NCBI GenBank assembly: GCA_020628865.1
Contig: JAHDEJ010000004.1
Location: 99,374-163,373 of the forward strand
Direction: 5' to 3'
DNA: 64,000 nt
Source of the DNA: Acidimicrobiales bacterium
GTDB taxonomy: Bacteria; Actinomycetota; Acidimicrobiia; Acidimicrobiales; SHLQ01
The notes under the pieces were generated by a model that was given only the letters and a program-made list of their open reading frames with translations, did no database searches and was not told the DNA's origin. Positions 6,096-13,679 of the stretch are shown here, piece by piece. Each line of letters begins with the position of its first letter. Within the stretch, counting starts at the first letter, position 1. The position numbers and the translations under genes were made by a program.

Positions 6096-7298
6096 ATGAC
6101 GACGCTGCCGACACTTCCAACCCCCGACTTCTACGACTACTCGTGGGCGCCGATCGCCGAGGCCCGCCCGGATGGTCGGTTCCTTCACCTCCGATGGCCG
6201 GACGGCGCAGAGCTGGCGGCCTTCGACTGGTGGCTGCGCGAGAACGCGGTCGACGGCGGCGGGGTGGACCTTGCCACCCGCGAGGGAATCCTCGATCCCG
6301 CCGAACACTCCGACGAGACCGAAATGTCGTCGGTGGAGCTCACGGAGCACGGAGCGCTGCGCATCACCTGGGCGCCGGACGGTGTCGTCGCCGACTACCA
6401 CCCCGGTTGGCTGCGTCATGTGGCCGACGGGAATCATCGAGCTGACAGCTGGCTTCCCAAGCCGAAGCCGTGGACGGCTGAGCAGCTCCCCGAGCCGCCG
6501 ACCCACGACGGCACGAATGTGCTTGGTGACGACGAGGCGCTGGGTCTGTGGGTGGCCGACCTCCTGCGCTTCGGTATCGCCCGCCTGCGCGGCTGCCCCA
6601 CCGACCTGGACTTCAACCAGCAGCTGGGCGAACGGATCGGCGCGATCCGGGACACGAACTTCGGTGTGAGCTGGGACGTGAAAGCCGACGTCGAGATGGC
6701 GGGCTCGTCCGACACGAACAGCACGGCGAACACGAATCTTCGACTCGGTCCCCACACGGATCTTCCAACTCGGGAGACACCGCCCGGGTTTCAATTTCTG
6801 CATTGCGTTCTGAACGAGACGGCCGGCGGCTTCTCGACGATGGCCGATGGTGCGGCGGTGGCTGGGGCTCTCGAGGTCGAGTACCCCGAGCACTACGAGG
6901 CGCTCTGCACGCTCAACTGGGTCTTCTTCAATCGTGGTCCGGGAATCGATCACCGCTGGTCCGGGCCGATGATCGACCACGGCGTCGACGGATCGCCGCT
7001 CACCCTCCGCGCCTTCTACCCGGTGCGCGGCTTTCCCGACATGGCGCCGGAGGACATGCCGCGGGCGTACGCCGCCATGCGGGTGTTCTCGCAGCTTGCG
7101 GCGAGCGACCGATTCCAGATGAGCTATCCGTTCGAGCCCGGCGACATCGTCGGATTCGACAACCGGCGCATCCTGCATGGGCGCGACGCCTTCGAGTCGG
7201 GAGGGCGACGCCACCTTCGCGGGATCTACATCGATCACGACGAGGTGCGATCATTCGCCCGGGTGACAAGCCGCCGCCTCGCCGCCAAGCAACCCTGA
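6096..7298 (+). CDS. Gamma-butyrobetaine hydroxylase-like Fe(II)/2-oxoglutarate dioxygenase
   Basis: 400 residues. The C-terminal TauD/BBOX-type domain has the facial triad His220-x-Asp222 (LGPHTDLP) and distal His361 (RILHGRDAF), with an Arg-rich end for 2-oxoglutarate. An N-terminal DUF971-like domain (about 25-125) is recognisable from LHLRWPDG, WWLRENA and WLRHV. The reaction would be gamma-butyrobetaine + 2-oxoglutarate + O2 to L-carnitine + succinate + CO2. The CxCxxC zinc cluster normal in the N-terminal domain is missing (ENAVDGGGVD instead). First gene of the run hydroxylase, BKACE, carnitine dehydrogenase, which supports a butyrobetaine or carnitine role over trimethyllysine. Confidence 0.87.
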   Translation: MTTLPTLPTPDFYDYSWAPIAEARPDGRFLHLRWPDGAELAAFDWWLRENAVDGGGVDLATREGILDPAEHSDETEMSSVELTEHGALRITWAPDGVVADYHPGWLRHVADGNHRADSWLPKPKPWTAEQLPEPPTHDGTNVLGDDEALGLWVADLLRFGIARLRGCPTDLDFNQQLGERIGAIRDTNFGVSWDVKADVEMAGSSDTNSTANTNLRLGPHTDLPTRETPPGFQFLHCVLNETAGGFSTMADGAAVAGALEVEYPEHYEALCTLNWVFFNRGPGIDHRWSGPMIDHGVDGSPLTLRAFYPVRGFPDMAPEDMPRAYAAMRVFSQLAASDRFQMSYPFEPGDIVGFDNRRILHGRDAFESGGRRHLRGIYIDHDEVRSFARVTSRRLAAKQP

Positions 7299-7308
7299 CC
7301 GCCCGCAA

Positions 7309-7440
7309 AGGTGCCTGGCACCTAACCCTCGCGTAGGTGCCTGGCACCAAGTAGACACGAGAATCCGAAAAAGCCAAGAAATTCAACAACATCGAGCGTA
7401 GGTGCCTGGCACCTAACACCCCGTTAGGTGCCAGGCACCT
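7309..7440. repeat. Four copies of the GGTGCC(A/T)GGCACC palindrome
   Basis: Copies at 7310-7322, 7336-7348, 7401-7413 (GGTGCCTGGCACC) and 7427-7439 (GGTGCCAGGCACC). They fill much of the 175-nt gap between the dioxygenase and BKACE genes. Further copies lie at 31915-31927 and 52283-52295, with a degenerate one at 52257-52269, always between genes. This is a dispersed palindromic repeat, REP-like in behaviour. No transposase is linked to it in this window. Confidence 0.85.
7400..7440 (+). terminator. 18-bp perfect stem-loop built from two repeat copies
   Basis: AGGTGCCTGGCACCTAAC (7400-7417) and GTTAGGTGCCAGGCACCT (7423-7440) pair perfectly over 18 bp with the loop ACCCC. It lies 23 nt upstream of the BKACE ribosome-binding site (AGGAG, 7463-7467). 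It may attenuate or stabilise transcript ends between the two genes. There is no T-tract, so intrinsic termination is uncertain. Confidence 0.55.
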
Positions 7441-7473
7441 GGCGGGAACAGAACGAGCAAACAGGAGAATCCA

Positions 7474-8376
7474 ATGCCAGAGAAGAAGCACGACGGAGTG
7501 TTCATCACGTGTGCGGTCACCGGTGGCGGCGCCACCACCCACAAGTCCGACAAGGTGCCGGTCACCCCGGAGCAGATCGCAAACTCGTGCATCGAAGCCG
7601 CCAAGGCCGGCGCAGCGATCACCCACGTTCACGTGCGTGAAGACGACGGCTCCCCGTCCCGAGACATCGGCAAGTACGCCGAGGTCGTCGAACGGGTCCG
7701 CGACTCCGACACCGACGTCGTCCTCAACCTCACCGCAGGTATGGGTGGCGACATCGTCCTCGGCGGCGTCGAGAGCCCACTGCCGCCGTCCGCCGACGGC
7801 ACCGACATGGTCGGCGCAACCGAACGGGTGGAACACGTCCGTCAGCTCAAGCCCGAAATCTGCACGCTCGACTGCGGCACGATGAACTTCGGCGAAGGCG
7901 ACTACATCATGACCAACACGCCGAGCCAGCTCGAGGAGATGGCGAAGCAGATGACCGAGATCGGCACGCGCATCGAGATCGAGGCGTTCGACACCGGCCA
8001 CCTTGCGCACGCCAAGGACCTCGTGCGTCGCGGCATCATCCCCGACCCGGTCATGGTGCAGCTGTGCATGGGCATCCCGTGGGGCGCCCCCGACGACCTC
8101 AACACGTTCATGGCGATGCGCAACAACATCCCTGACGACTGGACGTTCTCGGCCTTCAGCATCAGTCGGAACCAGATGAAGTACGTCTCGCTCGCAGCCA
8201 TGGCCGGCGGCAACATCCGTGTCGGTCTCGAGGACAACATCTACCTCGACCGCGGTGTGCTTGCCACGAACGGCGATCTCGTCGAGCGGGCCGTCACCAT
8301 CCTCGACGCGCAGAACTACACCATCCTCTCGCCCCAGCAGGTCCGCGAGAACCTTCAGCTCACCAAGCACGGCTGA
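7474..8376 (+). CDS. Beta-keto acid cleavage enzyme (BKACE, DUF849), probable dehydrocarnitine cleavage
   Basis: 300-residue TIM-barrel enzyme of the Kce/BKACE family. Zinc ligands are visible as His51 and His53 in the motif THVHVRED and Glu253 in VGLEDN. Family members condense a beta-keto acid with acetyl-CoA, giving acetoacetate and a new acyl-CoA. Beside carnitine dehydrogenase the likely substrate is 3-dehydrocarnitine, giving betainyl-CoA. ATG preceded by AGGAG with 6-nt spacing. Twenty-two nt separate it from the dehydrogenase, so the two are co-transcribed. I see no dedicated betainyl-CoA thioesterase nearby. Confidence 0.88.
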   Translation: MPEKKHDGVFITCAVTGGGATTHKSDKVPVTPEQIANSCIEAAKAGAAITHVHVREDDGSPSRDIGKYAEVVERVRDSDTDVVLNLTAGMGGDIVLGGVESPLPPSADGTDMVGATERVEHVRQLKPEICTLDCGTMNFGEGDYIMTNTPSQLEEMAKQMTEIGTRIEIEAFDTGHLAHAKDLVRRGIIPDPVMVQLCMGIPWGAPDDLNTFMAMRNNIPDDWTFSAFSISRNQMKYVSLAAMAGGNIRVGLEDNIYLDRGVLATNGDLVERAVTILDAQNYTILSPQQVRENLQLTKHG

Positions 8377-8398
8377 CCCGGAGCTTCAGGAGAACGAC

Positions 8399-9445
8399 GT
8401 GAGTGAATCAGCAGAGTCGACCGAGCGAAGCGAATCGCCGATTGCGGGAGTGGGAGTTGACTTCGAGATCACCTCCGTCTCCCGCGCCGCCGTGGTCGGT
8501 TGCGGCGTCATCGGTGCCGCCTGGGCGAGCCGGATGCTCCTCAACGGCGTCGATGTTGCGATCAGCGACCCGAACCCCGATGCCGAGGCGATCCTCACCG
8601 AGGTGCTCGCCAACGCCGTGGCCGCCTACGACGATCTCGGTCTGCGAACCGACCGGCAGGGCAGCTACCGCATCGCAAGCTCGATCGCCGACGCGGTGGC
8701 CGACGCCCAGTTCATCCAGGAGAGCGTGCCGGAGCGGCCCGACGTGAAGGCGGCAGTACTGGCGCAGATCGAGGCGGCCGCACCCACGGACACGATCATC
8801 GGGTCGTCCACGTCAGGTATCAAGCCGTCGACGATGCAGGCCACGATGACCAACCCCGAGCGACTCGTCGTTGGTCATCCGTACAACCCCGTGTACCTGC
8901 TGCCGGTCGTCGAGGTCGTCGGTGGCGAACACACACCGATCGAGGTCGTCCGCAAGGCGCAGGGCATCTACGCGGGCATCGGCATGAAGCCGATCCACGT
9001 CCGGGTCGAGATCGACGCGTTCGTCGGTGACCGTCTGCTCGAAGCCGTCTGGCGCGAAGCGCTCTGGCTCGTGAACGACGGTGTCGCCACCACGCAGGAG
9101 ATCGACGACATCATGACGCACGGCTTCGGCCTTCGTTGGGCCCAGATGGGTCTGTTCGAGACGTACCGCGTCGCCGGTGGTGTGGGCGGATTCCGTCACT
9201 TCGTCGAGCAGTTCGGTCCGACTCTCGACTGGCCGTGGACGAAGCTGATGGACACGCCTGACTTCACCCCGGAGCTCGTGGACACCCTCGTCGAGCAGTC
9301 GGATGATCAGTCCGGCGAGTACGACGTCCGCGAGCTCGAGCGGATCCGCGATCGCAACGTCGTCGGCTTCCTGAAGGTGCTCGAACAGAACGACTGGGCC
9401 GCCGGCACGACGATCAAGCGGGTTCGAGACGCCGGGAGCGACTGA
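8399..9445 (+). CDS. Probable L-carnitine dehydrogenase (3-hydroxyacyl-CoA dehydrogenase family)
   Basis: 348 residues. Rossmann motif GCGVIGAAWASRML near residues 35-48, then the 3-hydroxyacyl-CoA dehydrogenase N- and C-terminal domains (SSTSGIKPSTMQ; VVGHPYNPVYLLPVVEVVGG). This HPYNPVYLLP motif and the 300-350 aa length fit L-carnitine 3-dehydrogenase, which oxidises L-carnitine to 3-dehydrocarnitine with NAD+. The start is the GTG at 8399, set by AGGAG six bases upstream (8388-8392). The larger open frame upstream overlaps BKACE and is a shadow. Together with BKACE this is the known two-step entry to aerobic carnitine breakdown. Confidence 0.85.
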   Translation: MSESAESTERSESPIAGVGVDFEITSVSRAAVVGCGVIGAAWASRMLLNGVDVAISDPNPDAEAILTEVLANAVAAYDDLGLRTDRQGSYRIASSIADAVADAQFIQESVPERPDVKAAVLAQIEAAAPTDTIIGSSTSGIKPSTMQATMTNPERLVVGHPYNPVYLLPVVEVVGGEHTPIEVVRKAQGIYAGIGMKPIHVRVEIDAFVGDRLLEAVWREALWLVNDGVATTQEIDDIMTHGFGLRWAQMGLFETYRVAGGVGGFRHFVEQFGPTLDWPWTKLMDTPDFTPELVDTLVEQSDDQSGEYDVRELERIRDRNVVGFLKVLEQNDWAAGTTIKRVRDAGSD

Positions 9446-9469
9446 CCGCACTTCGCTAGTCTCGACAGC

Positions 9470-10000
9470 ATGTCGCCAACGTCAGCTCTCCTGGTCATCG
9501 ATGTGCAGAACGATGTCGTCGTCAACGCGCATGCGCGCAACGACGTCGTGGGGACGATCGCCGGCCTCGTCGATCGCGCCCGGAACGAGGGGGTTCCCGT
9601 CGTTTGGGTGCAGCACGCGGACGAGGATCTTCCCGAGGGATCCGCCGGCTGGGAGATCGTGCCGGAACTCCCGGTTGCGGAGGGCGAACCGATCGTTCAC
9701 AAGCGCCACCGGGACTCCTTCGACGGCACGACGATGGCCGACGTTCTGGCGGACCTCGACGTGAACCGGCTTGTGATCACCGGGGCACAAACCGACTTCT
9801 GCGTTCGATGGACATTGCATGGCGCGCAGATGCGCGGGTTCGACACCGTGCTCGTCAGTGATGGGCACACGACGGATGACGGTGATGCGGCCATCCCCAC
9901 GGCTGCGCAACTGATCGAGCACACCAACCGCTACTGGACGAACCAGTCCTCCACGGGTCAGACCAACCGGGTCTGCGCAGCCGCCGAGGTTGTCTTCTGA
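9470..10000 (+). CDS. Isochorismatase-family cysteine hydrolase
   Basis: 176 residues. The Asp-Lys-Cys triad of the family is visible: Asp in LLVIDVQND, Lys in IVHKRHRDSF and Cys in GAQTDFCVRWT. Family members hydrolyse isochorismate, nicotinamide, N-carbamoyl compounds or related amides. It begins 24 nt after the carnitine dehydrogenase and is probably in the same transcript. Whether it takes part in amine catabolism, for instance on an amide or thioester intermediate, cannot be said. Confidence 0.85.
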   Translation: MSPTSALLVIDVQNDVVVNAHARNDVVGTIAGLVDRARNEGVPVVWVQHADEDLPEGSAGWEIVPELPVAEGEPIVHKRHRDSFDGTTMADVLADLDVNRLVITGAQTDFCVRWTLHGAQMRGFDTVLVSDGHTTDDGDAAIPTAAQLIEHTNRYWTNQSSTGQTNRVCAAAEVVF

Positions 10001-10395
10001 ACTCGCCACTTCGCCCGGACCCGACCGCTGCCCGTGAGTCGATCACCGAGCGACGCATCCGCGAGGCCCGCGCCCGTGGACTCTTCGACGATCTCCCCGG
10101 CGAGGGCAAGCCGATTGCCGATCTGGACCGACGTCGACCGCCGGGTTGGTGGACGAACCGGTTTCTGAAGCAGGAACGGAGCAAGCTGAAGTTGGCGGCG
10201 CTCGATGATCAGCTGAGCCGGGGACGTGCCCGTCTGTGGCGGCTGCCGACCGAGGAAGCCGTTCGGGCGACGGTCGGCGAGTTCAATCGGCTGATTGCGG
10301 ACTACAACACGGTGACCGGTCTGGAGCCACGTCCGTTGCTGGATGCCGATGAGCACGTGGCCACATGGCGACGTCTGAACCTCGCTGCTGATTGA
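9997..10395 (+). CDS. DUF1992 (DnaJ-C28-like) protein, apparent CTG start
   Basis: The family motif ESITERRIREARARGLFDDLPGEGKPI is near the N-terminus, followed by WWTNRFLKQERSKLKLAAL, as in bacterial DUF1992 proteins of similar length (132 residues here). No ATG, GTG or TTG exists in frame upstream of the motif. The only Met, at 10192, would delete the whole domain. A CTG at 9997 overlaps the TGA stop of the isochorismatase gene as CTGA, with GAGG seven bases upstream (9986-9989), so translational coupling from a CTG is the simplest model. Function unknown. Confidence 0.72.
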   Translation: MNSPLRPDPTAARESITERRIREARARGLFDDLPGEGKPIADLDRRRPPGWWTNRFLKQERSKLKLAALDDQLSRGRARLWRLPTEEAVRATVGEFNRLIADYNTVTGLEPRPLLDADEHVATWRRLNLAAD

Positions 10396-10409
10396 GCGAG
10401 GTTCGCACG

Positions 10410-10445
10410 GGGGGCTGTCCGGGAGGGGAATCTCGAACAGCCCCC
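10410..10445 (+). terminator. Stem-loop terminator after the carnitine-type operon
   Basis: GGGGGCTGT (10410-10418) pairs perfectly with ACAGCCCCC (10437-10445) over an 18-nt loop, 15 nt after the DUF1992 stop. There is no T-run, as is common in high-GC actinobacteria. The rest of the 10396-10686 gap holds the opposing terminator at 10639-10670 and otherwise nothing I can assign. Confidence 0.6.
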
Positions 10446-10638
10446 GTCATGTGCGTGCGACCGGGAGTCCAACCCCGGTCTCGACAGATCGGGAGGGGGT
10501 TGCCGATCCGTCGATGAGGCCAACATAAATCCACACTCGACCCTTGGGAACACCGGAGCGGCTCCCTTCACTCCCTGTTCACACCACGGAAAACTCGCGC
10601 GTGGCGCGCGTCACGCGTCGAGCCCAAAACGACAGCGA

Positions 10639-10670
10639 CCCGGTGCCGAATCCGAAGATTCGACACCGGG
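10639..10670 (-). terminator. 14-bp terminator hairpin with UUCG tetraloop for the minus-strand selenoprotein gene
   Basis: Read on the minus strand, CCCGGTGTCGAATC pairs with GATTCGGCACCGGG through a TTCG loop, a highly stable UNCG tetraloop, with a single G-U pair. The pair is a C-A mismatch on the plus strand, so the structure belongs to minus-strand RNA. It lies 17 nt past the stop of the gene ending at 10687, and a GTTTTG stretch follows. Confidence 0.7.
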
Positions 10671-10686
10671 CCACAGGTCTCGGCGA

Positions 10687-11325
10687 TCAGGGTCGTTCGC
10701 CGAAGTCCGGTCCGACGGTTCGGGTGCGCTTGAGCTCCCAGAAGCCGTCCATCGTTGCCATGGTGACCATCGCATCCCAGAGCGCAAGGCCTTCCTCGCC
10801 TTCCGGCTTGCGGGAGATCACGGGGCCAAAGATTCCCTTGCGGCCCTCCGGGCTGTCAAAAGCGATGATCGGTGTTCCCACGTCGTCGCCGACGAGCGCC
10901 AGGCCGGCATCCATCTTCTCGCGGATGACTGCATCCCAGGATTCGTCGTCGAACGCTGCGGCATGGCTCGTGTCGATCCCGGCAGCTTCGAGGAACGGCG
11001 ATGCGCCGCCGGTCATGACCGCATCCATGTCGGCGTCGCCGGTTGTCCGGTCGTGGTGCAGAACCGAACCGAACTCCCAGTAGAGGGCCTGCGCGGCGGC
11101 CATGCCCTCGGTGGCCTTCACGGACTCGAACACCCGCAGCAATTTGTGGGTGAAGTTCACCGGCGGGAAGTAGTCGGAGTCTTCCGGCGGCTTGTTCTTG
11201 AACAACAGACTGATCGGCTGCCACGTGATGTTGAGATCACGTTCCGGCTCCACAACGTCGACGACCCAACGGGCCGTCATCCAACACCAGGGTCAAATGG
11301 GGTCAATCCAGAATTCGATGTCCAT
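10687..11325 (-). CDS. Selenocysteine-containing DsbA-fold oxidoreductase, Rv2466c (mycothiol-dependent nitroreductase) type
   Basis: 212 residues if TGA at 11295-11293 is read as selenocysteine. The N-terminus is then MDIEFWIDPI-Sec-PWCWMTARWV, matching the FWFDPLCPWCW thioredoxin-like active site of Rv2466c-type proteins with Sec11 in place of the nucleophilic Cys and Cys14 as partner. The rest (VGTPII, FFELKRTRT-like FWELKRTRT end) is typical of that family, which reduces substrates with mycothiol. Starting at Met 11280 instead would remove the active site. A hairpin with a GUU loop (11278-11260) begins 14 nt after the TGA, as in bacterial SECIS elements. AGGG precedes the ATG at 11325, and a strong terminator follows. 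Confidence 0.85.
11260..11278 (-). promoter_or_regulatory. Bacterial SECIS-like hairpin of the DsbA-fold selenoprotein
   Basis: On the minus strand, GACGGCCC (11278-11271) pairs with GGGTCGTC (11267-11260), 8 bp including one G-U, around the loop GTT. It starts 14 nt after the TGA at 11295-11293, and the loop begins 23 nt after it. A G followed by U at the loop start fits the bacterial SelB-recognised element. Confidence 0.7.
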
Positions 11326-11395
11326 GAACGGACCCTATCGACTCAGATGCCGTCACGATGGCCCGGTCGTCGACCAGGCTCGTTTTCCACGATGC

Positions 11396-11418
11396 GGAAG
11401 TGGCTTGCCAGTGCTTCC
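11396..11418. promoter_or_regulatory. Composite palindrome upstream of the second IclR gene
   Basis: GGAAG (11396-11400), the palindrome TGGCTTGCCA (11401-11410), a 3-nt spacer and CTTCC (11414-11418). It ends 21 bp before the IclR ATG at 11440, in the 114-bp gap shared with the divergent selenoprotein gene. It is a candidate autoregulatory operator, differing in sequence from the one at 6054-6070. Inference from symmetry and position only. Confidence 0.4.
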
Positions 11419-11439
11419 ATTCTTGGCGACGATGGTTGC

Positions 11440-12162
11440 ATGACCGTTCAGAGCGTCGATCGGGCGCTCGCACTGCTCGCAATCCTCGGGGACCGACCCG
11501 GCGGCCTCGCGGACGTGTCGACGAGGGCCGAGCTGCCGCTCAGCACAACGTCGCGACTGCTGGACACGCTCGTCGTCGGCGGTGCTGTCGAACGTGGCCC
11601 GGATGGCCTCTTCCGAATCGGGCCGCTCGTCCATCGGCTCGGAGCGGCGTCCTCGACCTCGACCGCGTCGATCGAGTCCCGTGGCGCCGAGACGGTGGCC
11701 GCCCTTGCGGACGAGCTCGACGAAGCGGCCTGCATCTCGGTGCCCATCGGGTCCGAGACGCTCACGATCATGCAGATCGCCGTTCCCAAACCGGTGCAGG
11801 CACAGAACTGGACTGGGCATCGCTGGTCGATCACCGGTGGAGGCTCAGGGGCCGTGATGATGTCGACCTGGCCGACCAGTCGGGTTGAACCGCTCCTGGC
11901 TGCGCTCGACGAACACGAGCGAACCTCGGTGCGCAAGGAGATTCAGAAGGCCCGGCGTACCGGTGTGAGCTGGAGTCACGGCACGTACGTCGAGGGGCTG
12001 TCGAGTGTGGCGGCTCCGATTCTCGATGCGGATGGCATCGCCGTCGCCGCCGTCCTGGGCTACGGCCCGACCTACCGATTCCCCGGAAAGGGAAACGTGC
12101 AATCCGTTGCGGCCGCGGTTGCAACAGCCGGCGCAGAGATCACCCGTCGATTGGAGACGTGA
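11440..12162 (+). CDS. IclR family regulator coupled to an MttB-family gene
   Basis: 240 residues: helix-turn-helix at about 5-65 (SVDRALALLAIL, ADVSTRAELPLSTTSRLLDTL) and an IclR effector domain (SVAAPILDADGIAVAAVLGYGPTYR). The stop overlaps the start of the methyltransferase gene (TGATG), so the two are translated together. This implies the regulator senses a substrate or product of that enzyme. It is the second IclR protein within 6.5 kb. The ATG at 11440 is chosen because the HTH begins at once; the open frame upstream belongs to a shadow. Confidence 0.88.
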   Translation: MTVQSVDRALALLAILGDRPGGLADVSTRAELPLSTTSRLLDTLVVGGAVERGPDGLFRIGPLVHRLGAASSTSTASIESRGAETVAALADELDEAACISVPIGSETLTIMQIAVPKPVQAQNWTGHRWSITGGGSGAVMMSTWPTSRVEPLLAALDEHERTSVRKEIQKARRTGVSWSHGTYVEGLSSVAAPILDADGIAVAAVLGYGPTYRFPGKGNVQSVAAAVATAGAEITRRLET

Positions 12163-13679
12163 TGGCCAGACGAGGACGAGCTCGATCGACGGCGACGGAG
12201 CCCCGGATCCGCCAGCTGCCCTGGCGACAGGTCAAGAACCCCCATGGCACGCTCCCGATCCTCGATCGCGAAGGGGTGGAACGCATCCACGAAGCATCGC
12301 TGCGTGTGCTCGAGGAACTGGGCATCGAGCTGTGGAGCGAGGACGCCCGCAAGCTGTTTGCCGACGCCGGAGCGACTGTGGACGGCGAGGTCGTTCGAGT
12401 CGGACGGGAGGTCATCGAAGAGGCCCTTCGCACGGCACCGAGCGAATTCACGCTGAGCGCCCGAAACCCGGACAAGGTCATCACCCTCGGGGGCAACAAC
12501 CTCGTCTTCGGTCTCGTCGCCGGACCACCGGCCGTGCACGACGAGATCAACGGTCGCCGGCCATCGAACATGGACGACTACGAGCAGTTCATTCGGCTGG
12601 CCCACTACTTCAACGCCGTCCACATCATCGGCAACCAGGTCGCCGCGCCGATGGAACTTCCGGCCAACAACCGGCATCTCGACACCTACCGCGCCAACCT
12701 CACCCTCTCGGACCTGAGCTTTCACTGTTTGGCCATCGGGCGCGGCCGAGCGCTCGATGGCATCGAGATGATGGCCATCAGTCGGGGCATGACCGTCGAA
12801 CAGATGAAGGACTCGCCCGGCGTCATCACCGTGATCAACGTGAACTCGCCTCGACGGTTCGACGAGGAGATGGCCAACGGCCTGATGACGATGGCCGAGC
12901 ACGGCCAGGCCGTTTCGGTCACGCCATTCACGCTGATGGGAGCGATGACCCCGGTGACACTCGGCGCCGGCCTCGTCCAGCAGAACGCGGAGGCGCTGTT
13001 CGGCATCGCCCTCACGCAACTGACGAACCCCGGTGCACCCGTGGTCTACGGGTCCTTCACGAGCAATGTCGACATGCGTTCGGGCGCGCCCGCCTTCGGC
13101 ACGCCCGAACACGCGAAGGCGAATGTGGCCAGCGGTCAGCTCGCCCGGCGCTACGGGCTGCCGTACCGGTCGTCCAACTCGAGTGCATCGAATACGGTCG
13201 ACGCGCAGGCGGCATACGAAACGCAGATGTCGCTCTGGGGATGTGTGCTCGGTGGCACCAACCTGATCTACCACGCCGCCGGATGGATGGAAGGTGGGCT
13301 CCAGGCCAGCTACGAGAAGTTCATCCTCGATGTGGAGATGCTCCAGCACATGATGGAGTTCTTGACGCCGATCGATCTGAGCCAGGACGAGCTCGCCTTC
13401 GACGCGATGCAGCGGGTGCCGACGGGAGGCCACTTCTTCGGCGATGAACACACGCTCGCCCGATACGAGAACGCGTTCTACTCGCCCATGCTGTCCGACT
13501 GGCAGAACCACGGTGCCTGGGTGGAATCCGGCGCCAAGAATGCGACCGAGCGAGCGACCGCACTCTGGCAGACCGCCCTGGACGACTACGCCGAACCGCC
13601 GATGGACGACGCCATCCGCGACCAACTCGACGACTACGTCGCCCGCCGCAAGGAACAGATCGGCGATGGCGATCCCTGA
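12162..13679 (+). CDS. Trimethylamine methyltransferase (MttB) superfamily protein, non-pyrrolysine
   Basis: 505 residues covering the whole MttB fold (HEASLRVLEELGIELWSEDARKLFADAGA near the start; typical family length is about 500). Members transfer a methyl group from quaternary or tertiary amines (trimethylamine, glycine betaine, carnitine, proline betaine) to a corrinoid protein. There is no in-frame TAG, so it is of the non-pyrrolysine branch. No corrinoid protein or corrinoid methyltransferase gene is in the window. GGAG five bases before ATG 12162 supports that start over the GTG at 12159. The adjacent butyrobetaine/carnitine genes suggest a quaternary amine substrate. Confidence 0.88.
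   Translation: MARRGRARSTATEPRIRQLPWRQVKNPHGTLPILDREGVERIHEASLRVLEELGIELWSEDARKLFADAGATVDGEVVRVGREVIEEALRTAPSEFTLSARNPDKVITLGGNNLVFGLVAGPPAVHDEINGRRPSNMDDYEQFIRLAHYFNAVHIIGNQVAAPMELPANNRHLDTYRANLTLSDLSFHCLAIGRGRALDGIEMMAISRGMTVEQMKDSPGVITVINVNSPRRFDEEMANGLMTMAEHGQAVSVTPFTLMGAMTPVTLGAGLVQQNAEALFGIALTQLTNPGAPVVYGSFTSNVDMRSGAPAFGTPEHAKANVASGQLARRYGLPYRSSNSSASNTVDAQAAYETQMSLWGCVLGGTNLIYHAAGWMEGGLQASYEKFILDVEMLQHMMEFLTPIDLSQDELAFDAMQRVPTGGHFFGDEHTLARYENAFYSPMLSDWQNHGAWVESGAKNATERATALWQTALDDYAEPPMDDAIRDQLDDYVARRKEQIGDGDP

Follow-up and report, generated by a model that had tools for sequence, protein, structure and literature searches.

Gene organization at the locus

We studied a 64,000-nucleotide stretch of the genome of an uncultured Acidimicrobiales bacterium (contig JAHDEJ010000004.1; called here the window), in which a minus-strand gene is predicted to encode a selenocysteine (Sec) version of an Rv2466c-like oxidoreductase. 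The features of the gene were the following:

10687-11325, minus strand: predicted Rv2466c-like (PF22234) DsbA-fold selenoprotein gene, 212 residues, Sec being residue 11
11293-11295, minus strand: in-frame UGA, predicted Sec, aligned with the nucleophilic Cys19 of Rv2466c (from the alignment and the conserved TGA)
11284-11286, minus strand: TGT codon for Cys14, which aligns with Rv2466c Cys22, the resolving residue (U-P-W-C)
11259-11279, minus strand: predicted bacterial SECIS hairpin, stem 11278-11271/11267-11260 plus an outer U-G
10689-10687, minus strand: terminal stop of the gene, also TGA
10687-11280, minus strand: shorter ORF from standard ORF calling, beginning past the active site

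Under table 11 the shorter ORF had 197 aa and started at an internal Met, downstream of the active site, as an earlier note on this DNA had said of the frame opened by Met 11280. Extended upstream on the minus strand, the frame opens at ATG 11325-11323, reads MDIEFWIDPI-TGA(11295-11293)-PWCWMTARW and ends at TGA 10689-10687. The proposal of the same note that reading through the first TGA would restore a thioredoxin-like active site, with Sec at the nucleophilic position, was borne out by the alignment: a U-P-W-C motif was recovered, and the TGA fell exactly on Cys19 of Rv2466c.

Translated through the TGA, the window protein matched PF22234 (E 1.5e-34; 120.1 bits, above the gathering cut-off of 27) and presented the CP[W/F]C redox site of this family, with the predicted Sec for the first Cys and Cys14 as the second. 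Solved Rv2466c chains matched it at an E of about 1e-34, placing the TGA on Cys19 and Cys14 on Cys22. An AlphaFold model, built on relatives, had a mean pLDDT of 95; in the PDB, its ten best matches were M. tuberculosis Rv2466c and the M. leprae homolog (top match, 4zil). The Rv2466c-type DsbA-fold identity put forward earlier thus agreed in profile, chain and fold. The protein also reached PF01323 weakly (27.6 bits), and no NCBIfam model matched it. It shares with Rv2466c/Mrx2 of M. tuberculosis (PDB 4NXI, 4ZIL, 5XUR), a mycothiol-dependent reductase of stress defence that has no oxidase activity, the family and fold, the DP-x-[U/C]-PWCW site, the resolving Cys and the VGTP loop; the predicted difference is Sec in the place of the nucleophilic Cys19. 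In Rv2466c, Cys19 is the nucleophile, Cys22 the resolving residue and mycothiol the reductant (PMC11841060, PMC8280269).

The SECIS hairpin

A SECIS-like hairpin had been noticed after the TGA, and our analysis located one that covaries among relatives. It consists of an 8-bp stem closed by the loop GUU (11270-11268), 22 nt after the UGA, with an MFE of -13.7 kcal/mol; none of 200 dinucleotide shuffles was as stable (z -3.36). These values fall within all the bacterial SECIS criteria published in PMC13188914 (3-nt loop starting with GU, 8-bp stem, 22-nt spacing), among which is an MFE below -7.5. The 52-nt stretch taken alone had an ordinary MFE (z -0.48), and an Rfam scan of the region gave no SECIS family match; it is the compact hairpin, together with its conservation, that carries the signal. 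Among 34 distinct hairpin sequences 97.4% of cells were paired, with two-sided compensatory changes in three pairs. Slid registers collapsed, and none of 500 shuffles, which ignore kinship among the sequences, reached this pairing. RNAalifold independently gave the same hairpin.

Since the hairpin lies in coding sequence, synonymous codons were shuffled. The mean hairpin z was -1.83 in Sec genes versus -0.10 in Cys relatives (p 3.5e-8). At the loop codon, Arg was encoded by CGC or CGA in none of 60 distinct Sec sequences versus 20 of 37 Cys sequences (p 6e-11); all 60 used CGU, CGG or AGG, although CGC serves for Arg more often than any other codon in these genes. The hairpin is under strong synonymous constraint in Sec genes and not in Cys-encoding relatives.

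Selenocysteine machinery and proposed decoding

A search for selA, selB, selD and tRNA-Sec, recommended in the earlier note, found all four in the host genome: a tRNA-Sec (65.1 bits, anticodon tca), selA (379.7 bits) with selB adjacent, and selD, which has its own in-frame UGA in the catalytic UGCK motif. Across the class, selA was found in 54 of the 57 genomes with the Sec gene (see below); the three genomes with no selA match were two that are less than 75% complete and G310, at 96%.

Our reading, to which we assign a probability of about 0.93, is that the product of the gene is a functional selenoprotein belonging to the Rv2466c/Mrx2 family of DsbA-like mycoredoxins. SelB with Sec-tRNA would bind the hairpin just past the UGA, which would be decoded as Sec, and the second TGA at the gene end would still terminate. 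In the folded enzyme, Sec would be the attacking residue of U-P-W-C and the Cys three residues on its resolving partner.

As a separate observation, selD of the window genome (G000:C106:117069-117992, L071) is itself a selenoprotein gene (GAG-U-GCK).

Putative redox partner

By homology, the enzyme would most likely reduce disulfides or S-mycothiolated substrates: the selenolate would attack, a mixed selenenylsulfide or an internal Se-S bond would form, and the enzyme would be regenerated by mycothiol, itself recycled through mycothione reductase with NADPH. We regard the mycothiol step as probable. Mycothiol dependence is likely from homology, from the mycothione reductase of the host genome, which passes NF005884 (615 versus 501 bits) and not TIGR03452, and from the best MshC candidate, which at 427 bits is under the 485.1 cut-off, so that mycothiol synthesis is likely and not certified. 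Note that the window genome has two adjacent CysS/MshC-like ligase genes in tandem (G000:C73:6582-8934), the better of which is the one with 427 bits for MshC.

Sec could also be served by thioredoxin or by an F420-linked partner, such as an FrhB-type protein, in place of mycothiol. FrhB/FdhB-type F420 hydrogenase/dehydrogenase beta-like genes were found upstream of the Sec gene in 27 of the 78 named loci (see below), in most cases no more than about 200 bases from the Sec codon, and the window genome has an 80% identical copy:

L122:1790-2989 (and 26 other loci), same strand as the Sec gene: upstream FrhB/FdhB-type gene
G000:C44:335518-336687: FrhB-type homolog of the window genome

This arrangement suggests a lead to an F420-linked partner, and the C. 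glutamicum homolog NCgl2478 also takes electrons from thioredoxin (PMC8280269). Nevertheless, the FrhB-type gene of the window genome is on another contig, the nearest of the characterised relatives are linked to mycothiol (PMC11841060, PMC8280269) and the genome has mycothione reductase with a likely MshC, which makes a partner other than mycothiol rather unlikely; mycothiol is the reductant that we prefer. A TGA reported for this FrhB-type gene turned out to be its terminal stop.

Conservation of the UGA codon

TGA occurs at the Sec codon in 131 loci (57 genomes plus 74 loci, from two partly overlapping collections), all of them from Acidimicrobiia wherever the lineage is given. The 57 genomes, read across the class, have TGA at exactly this position. 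In the named collection, whose record titles give Acidimicrobiia, or just Actinomycetota or bacterium, 74 of 78 readable loci had TGA and four had TGC. Within the taxonomic family of the host, a homolog containing a single in-frame TGA was present in 15 of 19 genomes, and fragments with the TGA in two others. When 396 genomes were drawn from across the phylum, the Sec form was seen solely in Acidimicrobiia. TGAs were also reported for homologs that lie outside the main Sec branch; six of these were checked (four in other classes of Actinomycetota, two in the same order), and each was the natural terminal stop of a protein with Cys in its active site.

These data bear on whether the TGA is a true stop, either in a pseudogene or through an assembly or sequencing error. 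Standard ORF calling does stop there and most relatives are metagenome assemblies, but the codon recurs throughout the class, including two single-contig (closed) genomes, G020 and G175, and the single-cell genome AG-410-G14 (L138), which argue against metagenome error. In addition, the frame is intact on either side of the TGA and the hairpin covaries, with a constraint limited to the TGA versions; we consider a true stop highly improbable. Sequencing error, named in the earlier note among the things that could overturn the Sec reading, is contradicted by the many independent assemblies that show TGA. The alignment of homologs recommended there gave Cys at this position in related proteins, as well as in three nested clades that have reverted (see below). 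That the real protein is the short product from ATG 11280, with a function independent of the active site, is just as improbable: with the standard code its ORF is the longest, but ATG 11280 is not conserved (most relatives have GTG, Val, there) and W, D and P before the TGA are invariant in the 131 loci while synonymous sites vary, a protein-level constraint that an untranslated leader would not show. A genome-wide reading of TGA as Trp was rejected because the gene itself ends in TGA and the genome has a tRNA-Sec for UGA.

Probable gain and loss of selenocysteine in the family

In a FastTree phylogeny of 126 proteins, for which the Sec residue was masked, Sec lay deep in the main branch and Cys returned in three nested clades. 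This topology fits one early gain of Sec followed by about three reversions to Cys, the number of changes being approximate because the deep forks are weakly supported. The hairpin codons were lost in most of the reverted Cys genes. L096 (G045:C1:127100-128100), a Cys-encoding ortholog, retains the hairpin codons ACG GCC CGT TGG GTC GTC and looks like a recent Sec-to-Cys reversion.

The monothiol-like CPWA/CPFA paralog has no resolving Cys. Here TGA stands at the nucleophile position in seven genes, each from a different genome of a single family:

L203, the same as L091 (G384:C14:9605-10234): UPWA/UPFA Sec gene
L212 (G949): UPWA/UPFA Sec gene
L233-L237 (G870, G871, G873, G872, G272): UPWA/UPFA Sec genes

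A hairpin lies at the same offset in all seven, with a U-U mismatch in the stem and a mean z of -2.36, versus -0.10 in 42 Cys versions; selA was present in G384, the one genome of this set examined for the machinery. The tree of this branch requires about three further changes. With these seven Sec genes, the Rv2466c-like family appears to recruit Sec repeatedly at the nucleophile. A broader proposal, to which we give somewhat less than even odds, is that Acidimicrobiia have a selenium-based mycothiol (or F420-linked) redox branch, in which Sec would have been recruited at least four times at the nucleophile, in the dithiol (UPWC) as well as the monothiol-like (UPWA/UPFA) subfamily, with the SECIS in the same place each time.

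Relation to known selenoproteins

Bacterial Sec-thioredoxins and Sec-glutaredoxins belong to other families of the thioredoxin fold, which lack the helical insert of DsbA. They have in common with the predicted window selenoprotein the UxxC motif and SelB/SECIS decoding (PMC13188914). DsbA-like UxxC selenoproteins were predicted earlier from the Sargasso Sea (COG2761) and as GOS DsbA 1/2 (PF01323), and reviews list them, a DsbA-like form 1 selenoprotein appearing in PMC13188914. Like the window protein, these are DsbA relatives of the thioredoxin fold in which Sec takes the first position of the active site; what defines their sets is the broad DSBA domain or COG2761. Some of the ocean DsbA-like sequences may belong to the Acidimicrobiia branch; AACY01178397 and NIP15863.1 are examples from the Sargasso and GOS sets. 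The portions of the 2026 review PMC13188914 used here contain no mention of PF22234, Rv2466c, mycothiol or Acidimicrobiia, and literature searches by title and abstract gave nothing relevant on Rv2466c with selenocysteine, or on Acidimicrobiia with selenoprotein or selenocysteine. The earlier statement that a Sec version is not well described hence stands in part: DsbA-like UxxC selenoproteins are already catalogued, and what appears undescribed is that the protein is of the Rv2466c type and that Sec is used repeatedly and throughout the class.

On this reading, the known selenoproteins of Actinomycetota would be joined by a class-wide one, from a family that has been studied for activating a tuberculosis prodrug. 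Standard annotation probably truncates such genes past the active site, and the selenoproteome of Acidimicrobiia is therefore likely undercounted. The family would also offer a natural experiment, within one gene family, on Sec gain, Sec-to-Cys reversion and SECIS decay, and it raises the question of why selenium repeatedly benefits a mycothiol-type redox enzyme.

Genomic surroundings

The conserved neighbours of the window copy are common to near relatives only. On the plus strand, positions 6096-13679 of the window hold genes for a TauD-like dioxygenase, BKACE, a 3-hydroxyacyl-CoA dehydrogenase-like protein, an isochorismatase-like protein, IclR and an MttB-type methyltransferase (Pfam assignments). 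Judged by these domains, the cluster around the selenoprotein gene forms a putative pathway resembling a carnitine or quaternary-amine degradation island.
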